Positions 2,240-9,972 of a stretch of DNA of 11,548 bases are shown here, one piece after another. Position numbers and translations under genes: made by a program. The first letter of the stretch is position 1. The number at the start of each line of letters is the position of its first letter. Origin of the DNA: Nitrosomonas sp. (GTDB lineage: Bacteria > Pseudomonadota > Gammaproteobacteria > Burkholderiales > Nitrosomonadaceae); assembly GCA_003514765.1 (NCBI GenBank), contig DOOY01000263.1, positions 1 through 11,548 of the forward strand, written 5' to 3'. A model generated the notes under the pieces. That model saw only the letters and a list, made by a program, of their open reading frames with translations, was not told the origin of the DNA and made no database searches.

Positions 2240-2260
2240 TGTTTTGATTTGGCGGTTACT

Positions 2261-2294
2261 CAGGGGTGTTTACTAATAATAGTTAACACCCCTG
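2261..2294. repeat. strong hairpin between the yoaA-like and MscS-like genes
   Basis: A 10-bp perfect stem (CAGGGGTGTT with AACACCCCTG) continues, after one T-T mismatch, into three more pairs closing a 6-nt AATAAT loop. It begins 22 bp after the yoaA-like stop codon. No run of T follows the stem on either strand, so it is not a canonical intrinsic terminator. It may be a terminator relic, an mRNA 3'-end stabiliser, or a regulatory site for the gene starting at 2354. Confidence 0.6.
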
Positions 2295-2353
2295 GTCATC
2301 CGAGCATACCCAATTATTTCACGTACAAGTTAACAAAGGTAGTCGTAGATTAT

Positions 2354-4147
2354 ATGAGAAATACAATAGCAATCAGTTTAAAGAATAGATTTCGTAACAT
2401 CTTATTATTTTTATTATTTTCTGGTGCGCTTCTGTTAATAACTGACAGTCGGGCTGAAAATGCCGAGCTGCCCCAGGCTGACAACAACCGCGCCACTCTA
2501 AAAGCGACAACATGGCCGCTTTCTCCCAGGCATAAACCTTCCCGCAATGACCTGCAAAGTGAAGAACAATCTTCTCACGAAGAAGTCGTCTTTAATAAGT
2601 TAAACACCATTATCGATAATATCAATGTGTTAAAAAAAGAACTTGAAGACAAAACAATTTTGTTGAATAAGGCAAAAACAGAAAAGGAAAAAACAACGAT
2701 CCTGAATGAAATAGATGAGATCAATCAATTAATTAAAGAACAGGAAAATGCGTTTGAGGTGATACAGACCGGTGGGCTGGATTTAGCCAAAGTTGAAGAT
2801 TCACAAGATAAGAGCTTTGACTGGCAGAAAAATTTACTTGAGATTCTGCAGCCGATCATGAATGAACTGCACCAGTATACTGAGGACAAACGTAAAGTCG
2901 TTCAGCTTCAAAACAAAATAGCGTTTTATCAATCGCAAATTAAAGATAGTAACAAGGCGCTTGAAAAAATGGCGCGTATTGATAAAGCAGGTCTTGAGCA
3001 AGCTGCGCTCGACAGGTTTGAAAAAGTCAGGAAAAAATGGAAAAACCTGCTGGAGGATAGTAAACATAAACTGGGCGTTGTGAAAATGCGACTGGATGGA
3101 ATGATTGCTGCCGAAAGTGAAAAGGAAGTATCGATTGGTGATCATATTCAGCAGTTTGTGCTGGGGCGCGGTGCCACCATTCTGATGGCAGTGCTTGCAG
3201 CCGTAGTTGTGTTCTTTTCCATGTCGTTGGTATGGAGTGCAATCATGTGGTTAAGCACGCGAAATCAAAATGGCAAATTGTCTTATTTTCAACGTATAAC
3301 CCATCTTGTCTACCGCACGATGATGGTGCTGTTTTCTATAGCAACCATTTTCTTTGTGTTAAATCAACGCAATGATCAGGTGTTGGTGGGGGTCGCGGTG
3401 TTATTGTTGATTGTCGTTATCTGGGCGTTAAAAAACTCTGTTCCACGCTATATGAATGAATTACAGACCATTCTCAATGCCGGCCCGGTCAGAGAGGGCG
3501 AGCGCGTTCTATACAATGGCGTACCGATGAAAATAGACCGGCTTAATTTCTTTTCAAGACTGACGAACCCGGCCATGCCCGAATTAAAGGTGAGGCTGCC
3601 GCTGTCAGAATTAAACAGCTATGTATCACGTCCATACAAAGACGATGAACCCTGGTTTCCGTGCAAGGAAGGTGATTTTGTGCTGCTTTCGAACGGGTGG
3701 TGCCTGAAGGTCAAGTGCATTACGCCGGAACATGTACTGCTTACTTTGGGTAATGGTGCCATGCCGCAAATCTATACCATTGAAGATTTTATGGAGGCCG
3801 GCCCAAAGAATCTATCGGAAGGATTTATTGTTGTCAGCGTGATCGGCATCGATTATAAGTATCAACAGCGATGCACGACCGATATCCCTGGAATTTTCAG
3901 GGAAGGGATACGCAAGGGATTGCTGCAGGAAGGCTATGGGCATGCACTCAAGGATCTTCTGGTCTACTTTAATCAGGCCAATAGTTCATCTCTGGATTAT
4001 AAAATCATCGCTGTACTCGATGGGAACGCTGCAGCAAACTACAACGATATAGTGCGCGATCTGCAACGTTTTGCTGTGGATGTCTGCAACCAGCAGCAAT
4101 GGAATATTCCTTTTAATCAAATGGTGGTGCATCAGGCTGAAAATTAG
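2354..4147 (+). CDS. exported coiled-coil MscS-family membrane protein
   Basis: The 597-residue product starts with a Sec-type signal peptide (basic start, hydrophobic core, SRA|EN cleavage near residue 34). Residues about 80-255 are charged and heptad-rich, predicted periplasmic coiled coil. Three membrane segments follow (about 273-300, 316-337, 342-360). The soluble C-terminal half has two beta-domain-like stretches (EGERVLYNGVPMK near 381-393 and EGDFVLLSNGWCLKVK near 439-454), then an alpha/beta region ending IPFNQMVVHQ, which matches the C-terminal domain end of MscS channels. The pore helix is poorly conserved compared with E. coli MscS. The family opens under membrane tension in osmotic downshock, but whether this divergent member is a channel is inferred. 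An in-frame TTG at 2249 would add 35 residues, run through the hairpin and bury the signal peptide, so the ATG at 2354 is preferred; a weak AAAGG lies about 14 nt upstream of it. It converges on the STAND gene with 29 bp between stops. Confidence 0.82.
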   Translation: MRNTIAISLKNRFRNILLFLLFSGALLLITDSRAENAELPQADNNRATLKATTWPLSPRHKPSRNDLQSEEQSSHEEVVFNKLNTIIDNINVLKKELEDKTILLNKAKTEKEKTTILNEIDEINQLIKEQENAFEVIQTGGLDLAKVEDSQDKSFDWQKNLLEILQPIMNELHQYTEDKRKVVQLQNKIAFYQSQIKDSNKALEKMARIDKAGLEQAALDRFEKVRKKWKNLLEDSKHKLGVVKMRLDGMIAAESEKEVSIGDHIQQFVLGRGATILMAVLAAVVVFFSMSLVWSAIMWLSTRNQNGKLSYFQRITHLVYRTMMVLFSIATIFFVLNQRNDQVLVGVAVLLLIVVIWALKNSVPRYMNELQTILNAGPVREGERVLYNGVPMKIDRLNFFSRLTNPAMPELKVRLPLSELNSYVSRPYKDDEPWFPCKEGDFVLLSNGWCLKVKCITPEHVLLTLGNGAMPQIYTIEDFMEAGPKNLSEGFIVVSVIGIDYKYQQRCTTDIPGIFREGIRKGLLQEGYGHALKDLLVYFNQANSSSLDYKIIAVLDGNAAANYNDIVRDLQRFAVDVCNQQQWNIPFNQMVVHQAEN

Positions 4148-4176: not shown

Positions 4177-7100
4177 TTAAGGTGAAATGGGCAGCTCGGA
4201 ACATTGCTTTTGATATTCTATATCTGAAGAAATCCACTCGCGCCATTCTTTTTGAGTCATGTTGCGTGTCAGTTTATTGCAAAGCTGCTTAACCCAGTTA
4301 TTATGTGCGGGCCAGATGCGCAGCGTCATATCATCACTGCCGGATACGATGCGGGTACCATCGGGGTGATAATCGACGCTGTTGACACGTTTTTCATGTC
4401 CGCGCATGGGATCGCCGATAGCTTGACCGGTTTTGCTGTTCCACAGGCGTAATGTATTATCGCTGCTGCCTGAGGCAATCTGCTTGCCGTCCGGGCTGAA
4501 AGCAACGCCGTTGACGCGATCCGTATGTCCGATCATGGGTTCTCCGACAGGCTGATGCGTTTTTAAGTCCCAAAGAATCAGCGTATGATCTTTGCTGGCA
4601 GAAACCAGCTGGTTGTTGTCCGAGCTAAAAGCGACACTGGTCACGGCAGCTTCATGACCGGCTAACTCGGCAATGAGCCGGCCGGTGCTGACATGCCACA
4701 AACGCACTGTGTCATCGTAACTTGCCGATGCAATAAGCTGGCCATCCGGACTGAAGGCAACACCTCTGACCATTTCGGTATGACCTGACATGGGCTGGTG
4801 GACAAGTCGGCCGTTTTTTCTATTCCAAAGCCGCACAGTATTGTCTTTACTGCCTGAAGCGATATATTTGCCATCCGGGCTGAAAGCGACACTTTCAATA
4901 CCGTCTTTGTGTCCCGTCATGATATCTACGAGTGTCTGGCTTTCCGTCTCCCACAAACATAACAACTGATCACTGGCGCCGGAAACAATCCATTTGCCGT
5001 CCGGACTGAAAGCCACCCCATTTAATGAGCCGGTGTGCTCTTTCATGGGTTTGCCGGCCGTATTTCCGCTTTCCGCATCCCAAAGCTGTACGGTGGCATC
5101 ATCACTGCCGGATACGATAAGTTTTCCATCGGGGCTATAGGCTACACTTGCGACAAAGTTTTTATGCCCGCCTTTCAATTGTGAGTGAATGGGTTGATGA
5201 TCATTTGCATCCCATATCCGCAAGGTGGTGTCGCGGCCGCCCGAAACAAAATTTTCCCCATCCGAGCTGAAGACGACCGTCAGTACGGATTCTTCATGGC
5301 CTTGTATCGGTTTGCCAATGGTTTGACCGTTTTCGGTTTTCCACAGACGTAGGGTTCTATCATGAGCTGCCGATACAATTCTGGTGTTATCCGGACTGAA
5401 CGCCACGCTCCAGACGATATCGTCATGCCCTTGCAGCGGTTCTCCCAGCGCCTCCAGGGTTTGCGCATTCCATAATCGCAGGGTTTTATCCTGGCTGCTG
5501 GAAGCAATCATTAATCCATCGGAACTATAGTCAATGTGGGTGATACTGTCTTTATGTCCGTGTAGCGGATCATGGATGGGTTCCAGTGTTGTTGCGTCCC
5601 ACAATCGCAAAGTATTGTCATGACTGCCCGAGACAATGCGTGTGCCGTCCGGGCTGAAAACAACACTGGTTACCCCTTCCTTGTGGCCTTTGAGTTCGGC
5701 AACGGATTCCAGGGTATGGGTGTTCCAGAGACGCAGGTTTTTATCAAGACTGCCTGAAACGATGTGTTCGCCATTTGGACTGAACGCGGCGCTGGTCACC
5801 TGATCGCTGTGTCCTTGTAGCTTACCGATAAATTTTAGCGTGCTGGTACGCCAGAGTCGCAGTGTAGCATCCTGTCCGCCCGTTACAATATAGGCGCCGT
5901 CAGGGCTGAATGAAACGCTCAAAATGCCGCAACCGCGGTTGGTATCACCTTCATGAATACATTGATGCGCTTTCACCTGCTGGCTGATTAACTGGCCTTG
6001 AAAATTCCATAGCCGCAGCGTATTTCCCACGCCTGCTGTCGCAATCAATGTGCCCTGTTGATTGACGGCAATCGAAGTGATTCTGTCACCGGCGTTCCAG
6101 ATTTTTTGCGTGGCATTTTTTTTTGCCAGAACGGTAAGGATCGCCGAATCAACAGCTTCGCTCGGTGTGATTTGATTGATTGCGAGCAATTGCAAAATCG
6201 CGCGTTCATCGCCGCCCACCCTTGTGCCATTTGCCATATCCAGGCTTTCGGATACTACGCGCAGACTGCTTTGCGCCAAAAAGGTTTTTTCCTTGGCGAT
6301 ATTTGCGGCGTACCAACCATAGACAGCAATACCCGCCAGAGAGACCGCAAGTAACAACGCAGCACGCAGCTTGCGTGCCAGCCGGTTTAAATTTTCAAAT
6401 GCCAGTTGACGCTGGCGCACCTGTTCTTTTGCCCTGAGTTTCTGATTTTCTATCTGTCGAAGACGTTCATCACGCGCTTTACTGACAACGCTGACTAGCC
6501 GGTCATGAATGAGTTCTACCCGATTGGTTCCGAACTGCTGGTCAATCCGTAATAATCGATATTTATCGGCGAGAATAGACAGTTGACCGCGTGTTATGAA
6601 CCCATCCCGGATCGCCTGTTCAACCGGATAACTGCCGCGGTACTGGTTACCTTGTATAAGATAGGTCTCAATGAATTCAGAAACCTGGTCGGGCATGCCG
6701 TTGAGGGCTTCGTCATAAAAATCCTGTAATATATCCTGACCCGCCTGCTGCAACAGTAGCACATCAATTTTACCTTCCGGAGGACGGCGTTGATTAAGCT
6801 GATAGCAACATAAACTCAACAACACCGGTTCGATTACCGAGGTGTTGCCAGCTGTATTTTTGTCCAGATTGCCGACAAAGTGAACCAGTGGTTCGGCCAC
6901 GCCCGGCGCCAGCACGGCGGCACCTGCGCTGCTCACTGCGTCGATTGCGCGTTCCCGGTTCATTGGCAACAACCTTAACCGGTTGCGCAAAAGCGAGGGA
7001 ACTTGCTCTTTCCAGGTTTCCATTTCGGGAAGAAAATCTTCACGAAACGCCAGTAAGATACGATAGCGCTGAGAGGTCAGGTCGAGGGACGATATTTTAT

Positions 7101-7707
7101 GCTTGCTTGCAAAATAGACTGTCAGTTCACTCGGAATACGATTTTCTATCAAATCGGCCAGGCTGTTAAGATTTGATTGGATTCGGCTTGTGTTACCCTC
7201 TCCCCGGGAAAAGATTTCTTCAAATTGATCAAAAACCAGCACCGGCATTAACGGGTAATTATCATGGCTCCATATCTCCAGATCACGTCTATGCAGATAT
7301 TGCCACAGGCCCTCATCTTTATGCCACGGAGTAAAATCAGCCTGTGCGGTTTTTAATGCAGCCTGCAGTTTGCTGGCTGCCTGATCCAAAGGCGGCAAGG
7401 CCGCCGGGCTGTAATCAAGCCGCAAATGAACCGGGAAATAATGCTGAGCGCGCAACAGTGGGAAGAAACCTGCCTGTAATAGCGATGTTTTACCTAAACC
7501 TGATTTTCCGTAAAGAGCAGTCAGTGGTGCAAGCCGCACCATACGCAATAATTCTCTGGCTTCTTCTGAACGGCCAAAAAAATACTCACTCGATGCTTCA
7601 TCGTAGGGCGCAAGTCCAGGCCATGGATGCTGTGCATTTAACCGGACGATTTCCAACTGAGCGTTATTTTCAACAGCGGAATGAAGCGGGTCAACGGTCA
7701 TTTTCAA
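4177..7707 (-). CDS. STAND-type NTPase with membrane helix and 14 WD40 repeats
   Basis: The 1176-residue product opens with the nSTAND1-type block: HPWPGLAPYDE (27-37), FFGR (43-46), Walker A GKSGLGKT (67-74), Walker B VLVFDQFEE (156-164) and the downstream FREDF (221-225) and HDRL (401-404) motifs. A basic, coiled-coil-like linker (about 405-447) leads to one hydrophobic helix (about 448-468). Fourteen WD40 blades fill about 541-1134. A conserved-looking tail with LCNKLTRNMTQKEWREW ends the protein. STAND proteins bind a ligand through repeats, then oligomerise with ATP and switch on an effector. No effector domain is visible here, so the TIR protein 18 bp upstream is the likely partner. The start is uncertain: TTG at 7707 or ATG at 7701, both poorly spaced from the TGAGGA ribosome site, which instead suits an out-of-frame ATG at 7714. 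WD40-STAND proteins also have regulatory roles outside defence. Confidence 0.88.
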   Translation of the reverse strand: MKMTVDPLHSAVENNAQLEIVRLNAQHPWPGLAPYDEASSEYFFGRSEEARELLRMVRLAPLTALYGKSGLGKTSLLQAGFFPLLRAQHYFPVHLRLDYSPAALPPLDQAASKLQAALKTAQADFTPWHKDEGLWQYLHRRDLEIWSHDNYPLMPVLVFDQFEEIFSRGEGNTSRIQSNLNSLADLIENRIPSELTVYFASKHKISSLDLTSQRYRILLAFREDFLPEMETWKEQVPSLLRNRLRLLPMNRERAIDAVSSAGAAVLAPGVAEPLVHFVGNLDKNTAGNTSVIEPVLLSLCCYQLNQRRPPEGKIDVLLLQQAGQDILQDFYDEALNGMPDQVSEFIETYLIQGNQYRGSYPVEQAIRDGFITRGQLSILADKYRLLRIDQQFGTNRVELIHDRLVSVVSKARDERLRQIENQKLRAKEQVRQRQLAFENLNRLARKLRAALLLAVSLAGIAVYGWYAANIAKEKTFLAQSSLRVVSESLDMANGTRVGGDERAILQLLAINQITPSEAVDSAILTVLAKKNATQKIWNAGDRITSIAVNQQGTLIATAGVGNTLRLWNFQGQLISQQVKAHQCIHEGDTNRGCGILSVSFSPDGAYIVTGGQDATLRLWRTSTLKFIGKLQGHSDQVTSAAFSPNGEHIVSGSLDKNLRLWNTHTLESVAELKGHKEGVTSVVFSPDGTRIVSGSHDNTLRLWDATTLEPIHDPLHGHKDSITHIDYSSDGLMIASSSQDKTLRLWNAQTLEALGEPLQGHDDIVWSVAFSPDNTRIVSAAHDRTLRLWKTENGQTIGKPIQGHEESVLTVVFSSDGENFVSGGRDTTLRIWDANDHQPIHSQLKGGHKNFVASVAYSPDGKLIVSGSDDATVQLWDAESGNTAGKPMKEHTGSLNGVAFSPDGKWIVSGASDQLLCLWETESQTLVDIMTGHKDGIESVAFSPDGKYIASGSKDNTVRLWNRKNGRLVHQPMSGHTEMVRGVAFSPDGQLIASASYDDTVRLWHVSTGRLIAELAGHEAAVTSVAFSSDNNQLVSASKDHTLILWDLKTHQPVGEPMIGHTDRVNGVAFSPDGKQIASGSSDNTLRLWNSKTGQAIGDPMRGHEKRVNSVDYHPDGTRIVSGSDDMTLRIWPAHNNWVKQLCNKLTRNMTQKEWREWISSDIEYQKQCSELPISP
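4306..6087 (-). repeat. array of 14 WD40-blade coding repeats
   Basis: About 42-residue units recur with the core pattern VxSVAFSPDGxxIVSGSxDxTLRLW. Fourteen cores can be counted. At DNA level the segment encoding SPDG is nearly repeated across the array (GCCGTCCGGGCTGAA and close variants on the + strand). Fourteen blades fit two seven-bladed propellers. Blade 1 is the most divergent, and an insertion containing two cysteines (IHEGDTNRGC) separates it from blade 2. These are coding tandem repeats inside the STAND gene, not a CRISPR or intergenic repeat. Confidence 0.9.
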
Positions 7708-7722
7708 AACTCATTATTTAAA

Positions 7723-7728
7723 TCCTCA
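7723..7728 (-). promoter_or_regulatory. ribosome site overlapping the TIR-gene stop codon
   Basis: Read on the - strand the bases are TGAGGA. The TGA ends the SIR2-like/TIR gene and AGGA is a fair Shine-Dalgarno for the STAND gene, which implies translational coupling. The 8-nt spacing is ideal for an ATG at 7714, but that frame closes after seven codons. The STAND frame's own TTG (7707) and ATG (7701) lie 15 and 21 nt away. Confidence 0.6.
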
Positions 7729-9105
7729 GGCGTAATTCTGGTTCAGGCGCTCGCTGCGCACGAGTTTTTTCAATGCGGCATTCGTTTGTTCATCAGGCTG
7801 GCCGATGGGTGCGTGGCCAATGAGTAATTGTTTGAACTCATGCGGAATACATCGGTATGTTTCAAGCTTGAAATCCTGATCGACGATGATGGGAAAAATA
7901 AAGGTTCGCCCTTGAATGGCCTTGCTCCTTTCAATTGCTTCATGCCATTCCCGGCGGAAATATTTTTCGTCCAGGGAATCTGCATTTCTGGAAATGAGCG
8001 GAATAAAATAGCGGCATGTTTGAATGCCTTGCAGAATACGATTACGTAAATCATTTCCCGGTTCAATCGAATTTTTATCAAACCAGATTTCGTTGGATGA
8101 TACGCCTTGGGATTGAAGTGATTCAATCAGTGTTGCGGCAGACTGGCTGTCGGTTCCGCGGCAGTAGCTGACGAAAAACAGGGCGCCTCTTGGCACGGTT
8201 TCAGCTTTGGAAGAAGATGCATGCTCAACCGCTTTGTTTCTTGCCAGCCAGCGTTGATGAAGCTCGGAGATGAACATTGCCGGTGAGATATCGGAGATGA
8301 GTTTTGTGCCGGTGCTGTAACTTTCAAGAAAGTAAATAAGATTTTTATCGAGACAATTGCTTTCAATCAACCATTCTCTTTTTCTTTGTGTATCCAAAAG
8401 CCGGCCTTGCTTGGTCAACCGCAGAAAGAAACGGCTCAGCCACTCGGGAAAGTTGCATCCAATCAATAGGAGACTGCGTTGCTGCAATTCATCCAGAAAC
8501 CTGACTGGAACATGACTGCCGCGGGCAATGATGTTATGTACATACTCCAGCAGGTCTTCATCATGCACTGCAAACATCGGGCCGGCGCGGGATTTGCCAA
8601 ACAGGTAGAGAAGCTGTACTTCTCCATGACGTGCTTGCCAGTCTGAGGGCAGGTCTGATCCCTCGCTGGTGGGTAAATAAGGGGAATAAATAATCTCATT
8701 GACCGCGCAGCGTTCACGCAGGCAGCGGGCGAGCTGATCATCCGGTGTCAGTGTTATAAACAGCTGGAAAGAAGTGATAGCCGCAATTTGCCGCACCGGT
8801 TCCGGAATATGCGCATCGGGACCCGTTGTCAGACGTTTGATAGCATCATGAATGTCTGCGTATAAATCCTGAAGGTCGTATTCCTGTTCCTTTTTAATTT
8901 GAATAACGACATCGTTTAATTGATTGAAAGGCGTGTGCGAGATATGAGCCGGTTCAATATCATATTGTTTTAAAAGGTACTGCGCAATCTGTGCCTGAAA
9001 CGAATCGTTATTTTTTCCGCAAGTGAGCACTTGTTGTCCAATCACAGGAACGACAAGTCCATCTTCAATCCGTCTTAATAGCCGATTCCAGCTTTTTTCG
9101 TCCAT
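7726..9105 (-). CDS. SIR2-like domain protein with C-terminal TIR domain
   Basis: The 459-residue product has an N-terminal SIR2-like region (about 4-290) and a TIR domain (about 308-415). SIR2-like landmarks are GLVVPVIGQQ (16-25), FITLTPDD (116-123), LLYLFGK (165-171) and LLIGCNFPEW (213-222). At places where active SIR2 proteins have Asn (TxND) and His (HxHG) this protein has Thr/Pro and Phe, so NAD hydrolysis by this half is doubtful. The TIR half has FVSYCRGTDS (311-320), the loop IWFDKNSIEPGNDLR (340-354) and YFRREW (382-387), where E386 is the candidate catalytic glutamate. TIR domains of bacterial defence proteins cleave NAD or make cyclic ADP-ribose-type signals; activity here is inferred. 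The frame has no upstream start before a stop at 9139-9141, so the ATG at 9105 is the start. No Shine-Dalgarno precedes it. It leads the operon with the STAND gene. Confidence 0.85.
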   Translation of the reverse strand: MDEKSWNRLLRRIEDGLVVPVIGQQVLTCGKNNDSFQAQIAQYLLKQYDIEPAHISHTPFNQLNDVVIQIKKEQEYDLQDLYADIHDAIKRLTTGPDAHIPEPVRQIAAITSFQLFITLTPDDQLARCLRERCAVNEIIYSPYLPTSEGSDLPSDWQARHGEVQLLYLFGKSRAGPMFAVHDEDLLEYVHNIIARGSHVPVRFLDELQQRSLLLIGCNFPEWLSRFFLRLTKQGRLLDTQRKREWLIESNCLDKNLIYFLESYSTGTKLISDISPAMFISELHQRWLARNKAVEHASSSKAETVPRGALFFVSYCRGTDSQSAATLIESLQSQGVSSNEIWFDKNSIEPGNDLRNRILQGIQTCRYFIPLISRNADSLDEKYFRREWHEAIERSKAIQGRTFIFPIIVDQDFKLETYRCIPHEFKQLLIGHAPIGQPDEQTNAALKKLVRSERLNQNYA

Positions 9106-9111
9106 TGTGCC

Positions 9112-9237
9112 AGGTTCTGTTGACGTTTTATGTCTAAGTTATTTGAACACCTTGATATACCAAGGATTTCTGGAGTTTGACATTTCTTGCATTATTTTTT
9201 ATAAACAAGCTGTTGCAACCAAATGTCAACAGAACCT
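9112..9237. repeat. 126-bp segment bounded by 13-bp perfect inverted repeats
   Basis: The left end reads AGGTTCTGTTGAC (9112-9124) and the right end GTCAACAGAACCT (9225-9237), a perfect 13-bp inverted repeat. It extends by one G-T pair and three A-T pairs inward to 17 positions. The inside is AT-rich and non-coding, with two small palindromes (CCTTG/CAAGG at 9150-9165 and GTTGCAAC at 9212-9219). Size and ends resemble a transposase-less miniature element (MITE), but no clear target-site duplication flanks it. An alternative is a large regulatory hairpin. It ends only 6 bp before the start codon of the SIR2-like/TIR gene. Confidence 0.6.
9198..9229 (-). promoter_or_regulatory. candidate promoter for the TIR-STAND operon
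   Basis: On the - strand a perfect TTGACA (9224-9229) lies in the right arm of the inverted repeat. The best -10-like hexamer, TATAAA (9198-9203, 5 of 6), is 20 bp downstream; a poorer TTTATA gives 18 bp. Spacing is longer than the ideal 17, so strength is uncertain. A transcript from here would have a leader of about 85-90 nt and would lack the right arm, so it could not form the long hairpin with the left arm. Confidence 0.35.
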
Positions 9238-9266: not shown

Positions 9267-9788
9267 TTACGGTTTTTGAAGATTAATAATAATATCAGCG
9301 CCCAGTTCGTCTGTTGTAAATGCTGAATCACTGAATTTTGGAAAACCGAAATGCTGTTCGGGGTTATTCGACAATCCAAAAGGTTCTTCAGGCATCATAT
9401 TCCATTTTTTGTTTAATTTCCGGTTGCCATCAATATCGTGGTAACTGGCGACTGCGTAGGTACCCTGCTTTTCGAGATTAAAGCATACTTTATGCTGTTC
9501 CTCGGTGGCGGGAATACGGATACGCTTGGTGCGGCCTTTTTTATTCAAAAAATTGTCCGGATCATGATAGAGCTCAACGCTTAAAATGCCACCGGAACCA
9601 GCACCGTTGACAGTTACCCTGACTTGAGCAATATCAGGGTTACACGGATCAGTGGCTTCATAAGGGCGAATGTCCAGATGTTCTTTAGCAACGGCAATCG
9701 GTGCTAATAACAAACCGAGCACAAAAAAATTAAATAGTCCGACAGACCATAAAAATTTATAAAATATGTTCAATTTAAGATTATTCAT
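9267..9788 (-). CDS. small exported DUF2141 protein
   Basis: The 173-residue product begins with a signal peptide: LKLNIFYKF, then a long hydrophobic core, with a likely AVA|KE cleavage near residue 35. The mature part carries the DUF2141 pattern: VRVTVNGAGSGGILSVELYHD, later GTYAVASYHDIDGNRKLNKKW, EEPFGLSNNP and FGFPKFSDSAF. Two cysteines (DPCNPD and KVCF) could form a disulfide. The family is periplasmic or outer-membrane associated with an immunoglobulin-like fold, and no reaction is established for it. An in-frame GTG at 9908 would give 213 residues but overlaps the tex stop and masks the signal peptide, so the ATG at 9788 is chosen; only a weak GGA lies upstream. It follows tex on the same strand with a 116-bp gap, and its link to the TIR-STAND pair downstream is probably only positional. 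Confidence 0.8.
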   Translation of the reverse strand: MNNLKLNIFYKFLWSVGLFNFFVLGLLLAPIAVAKEHLDIRPYEATDPCNPDIAQVRVTVNGAGSGGILSVELYHDPDNFLNKKGRTKRIRIPATEEQHKVCFNLEKQGTYAVASYHDIDGNRKLNKKWNMMPEEPFGLSNNPEQHFGFPKFSDSAFTTDELGADIIINLQKP

Positions 9789-9852
9789 TGTAGTAAATCC
9801 GGCAACTCTTGCAGATGTAAAAAAACACTTCAAAAATACCATAAAAAATTTT

Positions 9853-9859
9853 AAAGGAG
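9853..9859 (+). promoter_or_regulatory. strong orphan Shine-Dalgarno
   Basis: AAAGGAG stands 8 nt before an ATG at 9868 on the + strand. It is the best ribosome-binding sequence in the window, yet the frame behind it is open for only 34 codons and runs antisense into the end of tex. Confidence 0.45.
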
Positions 9860-9867
9860 AAACTTTG

Positions 9868-9972
9868 ATGAATGCAGCGCGTGTATTGATGGCATCGGTC
9901 GTTATCACGCTTTTCCCAGCTGCATCGTTAATGCGATACGTTTACGTTTTTCATCTACCGTCAGCACTTTAA
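9868..9972 (+). CDS. possible 34-residue hydrophobic peptide or truncated gene start
   Basis: The frame starts MNAARVLMASVVITLFPAAS, which looks like the beginning of a signal peptide or a single membrane helix, and stops at 9970-9972. Its last two thirds overlap the tex 3' end on the other strand, so those residues are dictated by tex codons. It could be a real small membrane peptide, the surviving 5' end of a gene cut off by a rearrangement at the tex border, or coincidence. There is no homologue I recognise. Confidence 0.25.
   Translation: MNAARVLMASVVITLFPAASLMRYVYVFHLPSAL

Follow-up and report, generated by a model that had tools for sequence, protein, structure and literature searches.

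The window analysed here is the whole 11,548-nucleotide stretch of contig DOOY01000263.1 from a Nitrosomonas sp. assembly (GCA_003514765.1). On its reverse strand it carries two adjacent genes that probably form a two-gene, membrane-anchored STAND/TIR conflict module, a reading to which we give a probability of about 0.6. Gene 1 (7726..9105), recognised from its open reading frame (ORF), Pfam and homologues, encodes a pseudo-SIR2-TIR protein of 459 residues, in which a SIR2-fold domain (residues 1-293, 8227..9105) precedes a TIR domain (residues 305-453, 7747..8193) with a predicted catalytic glutamate, E386, placed by alignment (7948..7950). Gene 2 (4177..7707; 1176 residues from a TTG start, 1174 from an ATG at 7701) encodes a STAND protein made up of a divergent nSTAND1 nucleoside triphosphatase (NTPase) with Walker A and B intact (residues 22-433, 6409..7644), one hydrophobic segment predicted to cross the membrane (residues 450-468, 6304..6360) and a sensor part of 14 WD40 blades (4306..6123). 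At the junction (7708..7728) an AGGA overlaps the TGA stop of gene 1 and gene 2 begins 18-24 bp further on, in agreement with the sequence-only reading, made earlier from the letters of this stretch, which had described a same-strand pair with a ribosome site overlapping the upstream stop. Genes were called as longest ORFs, with starts and flanking genes approximate, more so in G+C-rich genomes.

The two genes are found together at nearly every locus. Scanning a single genome of each species recovered a gene 1 relative at 56 loci, of which 54 have an NTPase ORF directly downstream, always on the same strand (54/54), its NTPase domain starting 10-106 bp past the TIR stop; of the two unpaired loci, L023 stops at a contig edge and in L053 the gene is broken. 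Within the family of N. aestuarii (125 genomes), gene 1 occurs at 28 places in 22 genomes (E <= 1e-30) and is followed by the NTPase at 27, the exception (L084) being a truncated gene. Searching the same 125 genomes from the NTPase side gave 36 places, counted as 34 genes with two of them split, and all 34 are paired: 27 are the pairs already known, while the other seven, more distant and in two cases (L117, L121) without the N-terminal part, adjoin an upstream gene with the Pfam domains SIR2_2 and TIR_2. Counted as paired here are also NTPases that are broken or cut (L079 and L083, with a broken frame; L080, short; and L114). In a second family the NTPase was found at nine places in 8 of 250 genomes, paired at all nine, four of which lie in three genomes already known for gene 1 and five of which constitute a fresh test. 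A phylum-wide sample, scored for at most four candidates per genome, held gene 1 in at least three of 398 genomes at E <= 1e-20, all in pairs (the genomes of L068 and L070, and L134). Homologues standing mostly alone, which the sequence-only reading had named as an outcome that would speak against a joint system, are thus the reverse of what 54/56 loci and 34/34 NTPase genes display.

This association does not extend to ordinary nSTAND1 genes of the same genomes: none of 30 control loci (one per genome, best-scoring first, about 1.5 kb examined on either side) has a SIR2-TIR neighbour. Six of them give weak matches to the gene 1 profile (14-23 bits), located inside the NTPase's own ORF at L183, L191, L192 and L193, with a small match to the SIR2 part as well at L183, and restricted to the TIR part in an upstream ORF at L166 and L189; TIR domains fused to or beside other nSTAND1 proteins also exist. 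The pairing is near-obligate and specific, beyond chance neighbourhood. Against the nSTAND1 model PF20703 (cut-off 27.1 bits), loci of the gene 2 clade score about 80-117 bits, compared with mostly 127-399 bits, and 61-106 for a few fragments, for the other nSTAND1 proteins; this scoring left out the window, whose gene 2 has a database copy (P0121) that lists PF20703. Because the genes are paired in both directions and ordinary nSTAND1 loci lack a SIR2-TIR neighbour, the gene 2 NTPase is best described, from these comparisons, as a divergent nSTAND1 clade dedicated to its SIR2-TIR partner.

Individual loci add some variations on this layout. Five NTPase-clade genes of one genome (G021), ranging from close to distant (L057, L118, L119, L120, L128), each have a SIR2-TIR partner, and at the last of these (L128:7072-10835) the pair has two further neighbours on the opposite strand, a different TIR gene and a gene for an nSTAND1-WD40 protein, the latter possibly truncated where the contig ends. 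On a Methylococcaceae contig (L023:7947-9959) a separate WD40 protein of 670 residues overlaps the called SIR2-TIR start by four bases.

The two halves of gene 1 have fared differently in evolution. The effector-type TIR domain already proposed for it is borne out by a TIR_2 match (E 9.1e-15) and by conservation of Glu386 in 69/69 aligned proteins, the same as for the aspartate of the WFD motif; we take this glutamate to be the catalytic one from the alignment and from background on TIR domains. The nearest solved sequences include SPARTA TIR-APAZ, AbTIR and Cat1, the nearest folds in structure comparison are those of SPARTA, and the protein thus has the TIR fold by which TIR hydrolases of nicotinamide adenine dinucleotide (NAD), or NADases, are recognised. 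PADLOC offered no full-length model for gene 1, with PDC-S66 covering residues 295-406 only and a weak ThsB match (E 1.4e-4) limited to the TIR part. The SIR2 part has a fold of the ThsA/KomC/Avs5/DSR2/SPARSA type, residues 1-291 matching ThsA; of the features of SIR2 effectors such as ThsA, DSR2 and Avs5 it has the fold and lacks the catalytic Asn and the His (or Asn) of the HG motif. At these positions, placed by eye from the sequence pattern and the model's strands, the window has T120 and F169. The HG histidine occurs in 0/69 aligned proteins (Phe in 58, Leu in 6, Tyr in 5) and the Asn of TxNxD in one of the 67 with a letter there, while two other residues of the pocket are conserved, D122 (the Asp of TxNxD) in 67/67 with a letter there and G170 in 69/69. 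The best 120 of 404 homologues (E <= 0.001) repeat this pattern, with the SIR2 His in none, the Asn in three and the TIR Glu in 119, the remaining one being a gap. In Avs5, protection is lost with N110A, with D112A and when the HG/NG residue is changed to Ala or Gln, and Asn or His at that residue is functional (PMC12931631). Since the catalytic residues are lost here and Avs5 mutants at those residues lose protection, a role as scaffold or nucleotide-binding regulator is likelier for the SIR2 part than one as a second NADase; that second activity was considered and ruled out by the loss of Asn and His. The sequence-only reading had missed this loss, and its central proposal, a STAND switch acting on a TIR partner in trans, is still the best account of the pair.

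Gene 2 likewise conforms to what had been read from its letters, an intact STAND NTPase with 14 WD40 blades. The Walker motifs GxSGLGK[TS] and DQFEE are present in 13/13 sequences compared, and the NTPase alignment (A2), compared by sequence with solved structures, returned nothing at E 0.01. The blades probably form two seven-bladed propellers, and full-length Apaf-1 ranked second among the Foldseek targets. A recently amplified, near-identical WD40 array is ruled out by a mean repeat identity of 42% and by the absence of any tandem DNA repeat at score 40. For gene 2, too, PADLOC had no full-length model, its sole match falling within the WD40 region.

The part that follows the NTPase differs between relatives. 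A profile built from the WD40 repeats of the window counts at least five such repeats in 34 of 54 C-terminal parts, one or two in three (L047 being contig-cut) and none in 15; L017 and L050 are cut or truncated. The non-WD40 types comprise TPR (L026, L028), trypsin-like (L046) and LytR_C-like parts (L018, L020, L022, L033, L052, L054-L056) as well as parts with no family assigned (L041-L043, L045); the LytR_C-like label stands for one sub-threshold Pfam match (L018, E 0.0027) and seven parts grouped with it by eye, L052 and L056 giving no LytR_C match. Among 120 listed STAND homologues, 20 are without two or more WD40 repeats and eleven have FHA in the precomputed Pfam column, the pairing of these FHA types with gene 1 being read from contigs of equal length in two homologue lists. 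Two Nitrospira genomes that share one syntenic locus (L026 and L032) illustrate the exchange: identity is 83-93% in the outer flanks, 73-78% in the neighbouring TPR-S and downstream genes, 75.6% in gene 1 and 75.5% in NTPase residues 1-430, and homology ends after the NTPase, where one protein continues with TPR and the other with WD40, the C-terminal parts aligning at 22%. The two are sisters on the TIR tree with support 100 (quick method) and amount to a natural experiment on what the sensor determines. Over the whole tree, sensor type needs 7 changes, where 6 would be the minimum and shuffling gives a mean of 16.3 (5 for WD40 taken by itself, 2 for LytR_C-like and 2 for TPR); the tree was built by a quick method, has long branches flagged, leaves out L053 and L023, and carries no sensor label for L017, L039, L047 and L050. 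Even where both proteins have WD40, the C-terminal part is the least identical in 8/8 pairs compared, as in the window versus L006 (51%, against 66% and 72% for the other parts). Both the differing sensor part and the dedicated NTPase clade, as judged from sequence, go beyond the earlier reading.

Between NTPase and sensor, a hydrophobic segment (19 residues of mean hydropathy >= 1.6 within the first 150 residues of the C-terminal part) is found in 48/53 C-terminal parts, the window included, versus 13/326 control segments taken from gene 1 proteins and NTPases. Lys and Arg are more numerous in the 15 residues before the segment than in the 15 after it in 34/53, equal in 10 and fewer in 9, a charge bias that weakly favours a cytoplasmic NTPase and a sensor part outside the cytoplasm.

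Relatives of gene 1 are labelled in their records as Pseudomonadota, Nitrospira, Myxococcales, Acidobacteriaceae, Gemmatimonadetes and a Mycobacterium species, several of them metagenome-assembled. The pair is flanked in the window by DUF2141 (9267-9908), Tex, a 632-residue protein and YoaA; in the window and its nearest relatives it sits between the DUF2141 gene and the gene of the 632-residue protein, which adjoins YoaA, and outside this group the flanks differ. Relatives of DUF2141 are present in 61 of the 125 family genomes, compared with 22 that have the pair. We examined 18 DUF2141 loci. Among the best-scoring 14, seven have gene 1, three are empty sites with DUF2141 directly beside the 632-residue gene and nothing between (L139, L145, L147), two have an N-terminal stretch of gene 1 and no more of it (43 residues in L142; in L148 with a frame shift and ended by the contig), one has DUF2141 beside YoaA (L141) and one none of these genes (L143); the four lower-scoring loci (L149, L150, L151, L157) have DUF2141 only. 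DUF2141 as an obligate third component is ruled out by these numbers (61/125 genomes; beside gene 1 at only seven of 18 loci). Because of the empty sites and the differing flanks elsewhere, the pair behaves as an accessory gene module of patchy occurrence. A pair fixed at one locus of a single lineage, the other contrary outcome envisaged beforehand, does not describe a module found in 22/125 genomes, over differing flanks and in several phyla.

Within the window, the 632-residue protein (2249-4147, forward strand), which lies beside YoaA in L001 and L003 as well, matches no Pfam or NCBIfam family above cut-off and, judged by eye, contains hydrophobic stretches. An insert of about 126 bp (9112-9237) resembling a miniature inverted-repeat transposable element lies between the DUF2141 gene and gene 1, with 17-nucleotide inverted ends that are 94% complementary; it is missing at this position in N. 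aestuarii (L001), whose DUF2141 and gene 1 ORFs are 36 bp apart. Rfam gave nothing at gathering score.

Neighbours were scanned at 37 of 57 loci, two genes on each side, giving 125 proteins, of which 101 were scanned for defence models and eight of the other 24 by Pfam only. Among the best 25 of 29 matching families, single neighbours match models of a phospholipase effector, PD-T4-6 and C3a189 kinase, DrmD and mad6, and two match a HEAT-ARM model that also matches the window's WD40 protein. Several modules have TPR-S proteins beside them, in part fused to patatin or CHAT, and three more TPR-S proteins are among the 101 neighbours; alone or with CHAT or patatin they directly flank the pair at L018 (4411-9864 and 13184-15784), L026 (7756-9825) and L034 (7725-9710). 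TPR-S is presumably a conflict-system domain, judging by its Pfam name, and a literature search on TPR-S found nothing.

We infer the defence role, the trans-activation and the topology of the pair from sequence. In the mechanism that we propose, the C-terminal part would sense a trigger, by analogy with the propellers of Apaf-1; once autoinhibition is released, the NTPase would swap its nucleotide and form oligomers at the membrane; and the STAND oligomer would gather the gene 1 protein through its pseudo-SIR2 domain, whose catalytic relatives act as tetramers or filaments. Such recruitment could pack the TIR domains together, and clustered TIRs would hydrolyse NAD, its loss stopping or killing the cell and thereby limiting a phage or other invader. 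A bolder version pictures an envelope-spanning NLR: the NTPase would lie in the cytoplasm, together with a TIR NADase for which a dead sirtuin serves as scaffold, and the sensor (WD40 propellers, TPR, FHA, LytR_C-like, trypsin-like or other) beyond the inner membrane, so that events outside the cytoplasm, for example phage entry or an envelope breach, would directly trigger NAD destruction; the sensor would occasionally be exchanged just before the transmembrane helix, on a switch and effector that remain the same. It is doubtful, though still worth entertaining, and its odds are lowered because the tree makes sensor exchange infrequent.

Several observations weigh against a membrane-anchored conflict module. 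Since sensor types group together on the TIR tree, exchange occurs but infrequently, and sensor type mostly tracks lineage. The membrane anchor may not be universal, since 5/53 C-terminal parts (L005, L013, L016, L028, L034) do not reach the hydrophobicity cut-off; the charge bias, itself modest, could stem from a basic helix preceding the segment; and parts of the FHA and TPR types usually belong to the cytoplasm. Few defence genes turned up among the 101 neighbours scanned (best 25 of 29 matching families), and the enrichment in defence islands for which the sequence-only reading had asked is weak. No relative was found in phages and none was confirmed in viral contigs, and the plasmid search returned one non-mobilizable 2.5-Mb replicon; a phage- or plasmid-borne module is ruled out by these searches. 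An adaptor domain shared by the two proteins was not seen, with none from Pfam on gene 1 or among the best 25 of 75 families on gene 2.

The sparse defence neighbours would also suit a switch that does not act against phages, in which membrane stress, allorecognition or contact signalling drives bacteria of flocs or biofilms into dormancy or death. Many record titles name Nitrosomonas, Nitrospira, Accumulibacter, Thauera and Methylococcales, which are known from wastewater or freshwater, and trypsin-like and LytR_C-like C-terminal parts would fit an envelope signal; patchy presence and empty sites, however, fit a conflict system, as does the low identity of the C-terminal part in WD40 pairs, although relaxed constraint would give the same pattern, and we regard such a switch as unlikely. 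A Thoeris-like scheme, with the TIR making a cyclic ADP-ribose-type messenger for a third protein and the dead SIR2 pocket perhaps binding a nucleotide and tuning the TIR, would explain why D122 and G170 persist where the catalytic residues are gone, and TPR-S proteins beside some modules (L018, L026 and L034, for example) could be cited in its favour. It seems rather improbable to us, no third gene being constant and DUF2141 being more widespread (61 genomes) than the pair (22). Finally, some TIR domains are scaffolds and the STAND protein has a membrane-like segment of its own, so the TIR could be only an interaction module and the output, for instance, membrane perturbation by the STAND helix; retention of both Glu386 and the WFD aspartate in every aligned protein would be needless for such a domain, and this is the least credible of the alternatives, with very little to recommend it.

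The pair joins three known themes: an apparent trans STAND-TIR switch, a non-catalytic sirtuin fold and a receptor with a sensor that can be exchanged on a constant switch and effector. Should the membrane topology hold, the module would count as an immune receptor of bacteria that monitors the envelope and not the cytoplasm. The parts are individually known, and no description of this gene pair, or of the combination, was found among the listed results of a search of the open-licence literature, subscription papers lying mostly outside it. Kaur 2021, in which the nSTAND1 clade is named, describes bDLD3-TIR with bDLD3-STAND-FGS and other pairs coupled by effector-associated domains (EADs), which resemble the window in their neighbouring TIR and STAND genes and trans coupling; EAD-coupled partners share the same adaptor domain, whereas none is seen in the window pair, and the available part of that account describes no pseudo-SIR2 (PMC8195603). 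The EACC1 system (Kaur 2020) likewise has two genes, a conserved transmembrane helix and a constant and a variable part, but there EACC1, mostly accompanied by a caspase, forms the constant part, the variable part is read as the effector, and no SIR2-TIR is described in the portion available (PMC7159879). Swarozyc, a DUF4062 TIR-like NADase, acts in antiphage defence as a TIR-type NADase, as predicted for gene 1, but uses an auxiliary domain of its own to assemble with the portal of the phage, and the accessible text describes no STAND partner (PMC13174449). STAND sensors diversified by diversity-generating retroelements (PMC10907252) and LypABC, a CARD-NLR relative (PMC13236601), are also among the closest published work.

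Avs5 (AVAST type 5, SIR2-STAND) is one protein with an active SIR2 effector, whereas the system in the window has lost the SIR2 residues, has the TIR as predicted effector, is split into two proteins and bears a membrane-like helix; the single polypeptide of effector and STAND that characterises Avs is replaced by separate ORFs in the window and at 54/56 loci. Thoeris (ThsA SIR2-SLOG, ThsB TIR) also unites SIR2 and TIR folds in one system, but on separate proteins, with an active SIR2 and without a known STAND NTPase, so that its hallmark, an active-SIR2 ThsA with a separate ThsB TIR, is absent from the window pair. SPARTA, a short Ago with TIR-APAZ, is Argonaute-guided and, unlike the window pair, has no STAND and no SIR2 domain on its TIR protein. 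The Apaf-1 apoptosome and NLRs share with gene 2 an NTPase and two propellers, differing in their use of CARD and caspase in place of a trans SIR2-TIR and in having no known membrane helix. The module of this ammonia-oxidising bacterium would be built much like the immune receptors of animals and plants.

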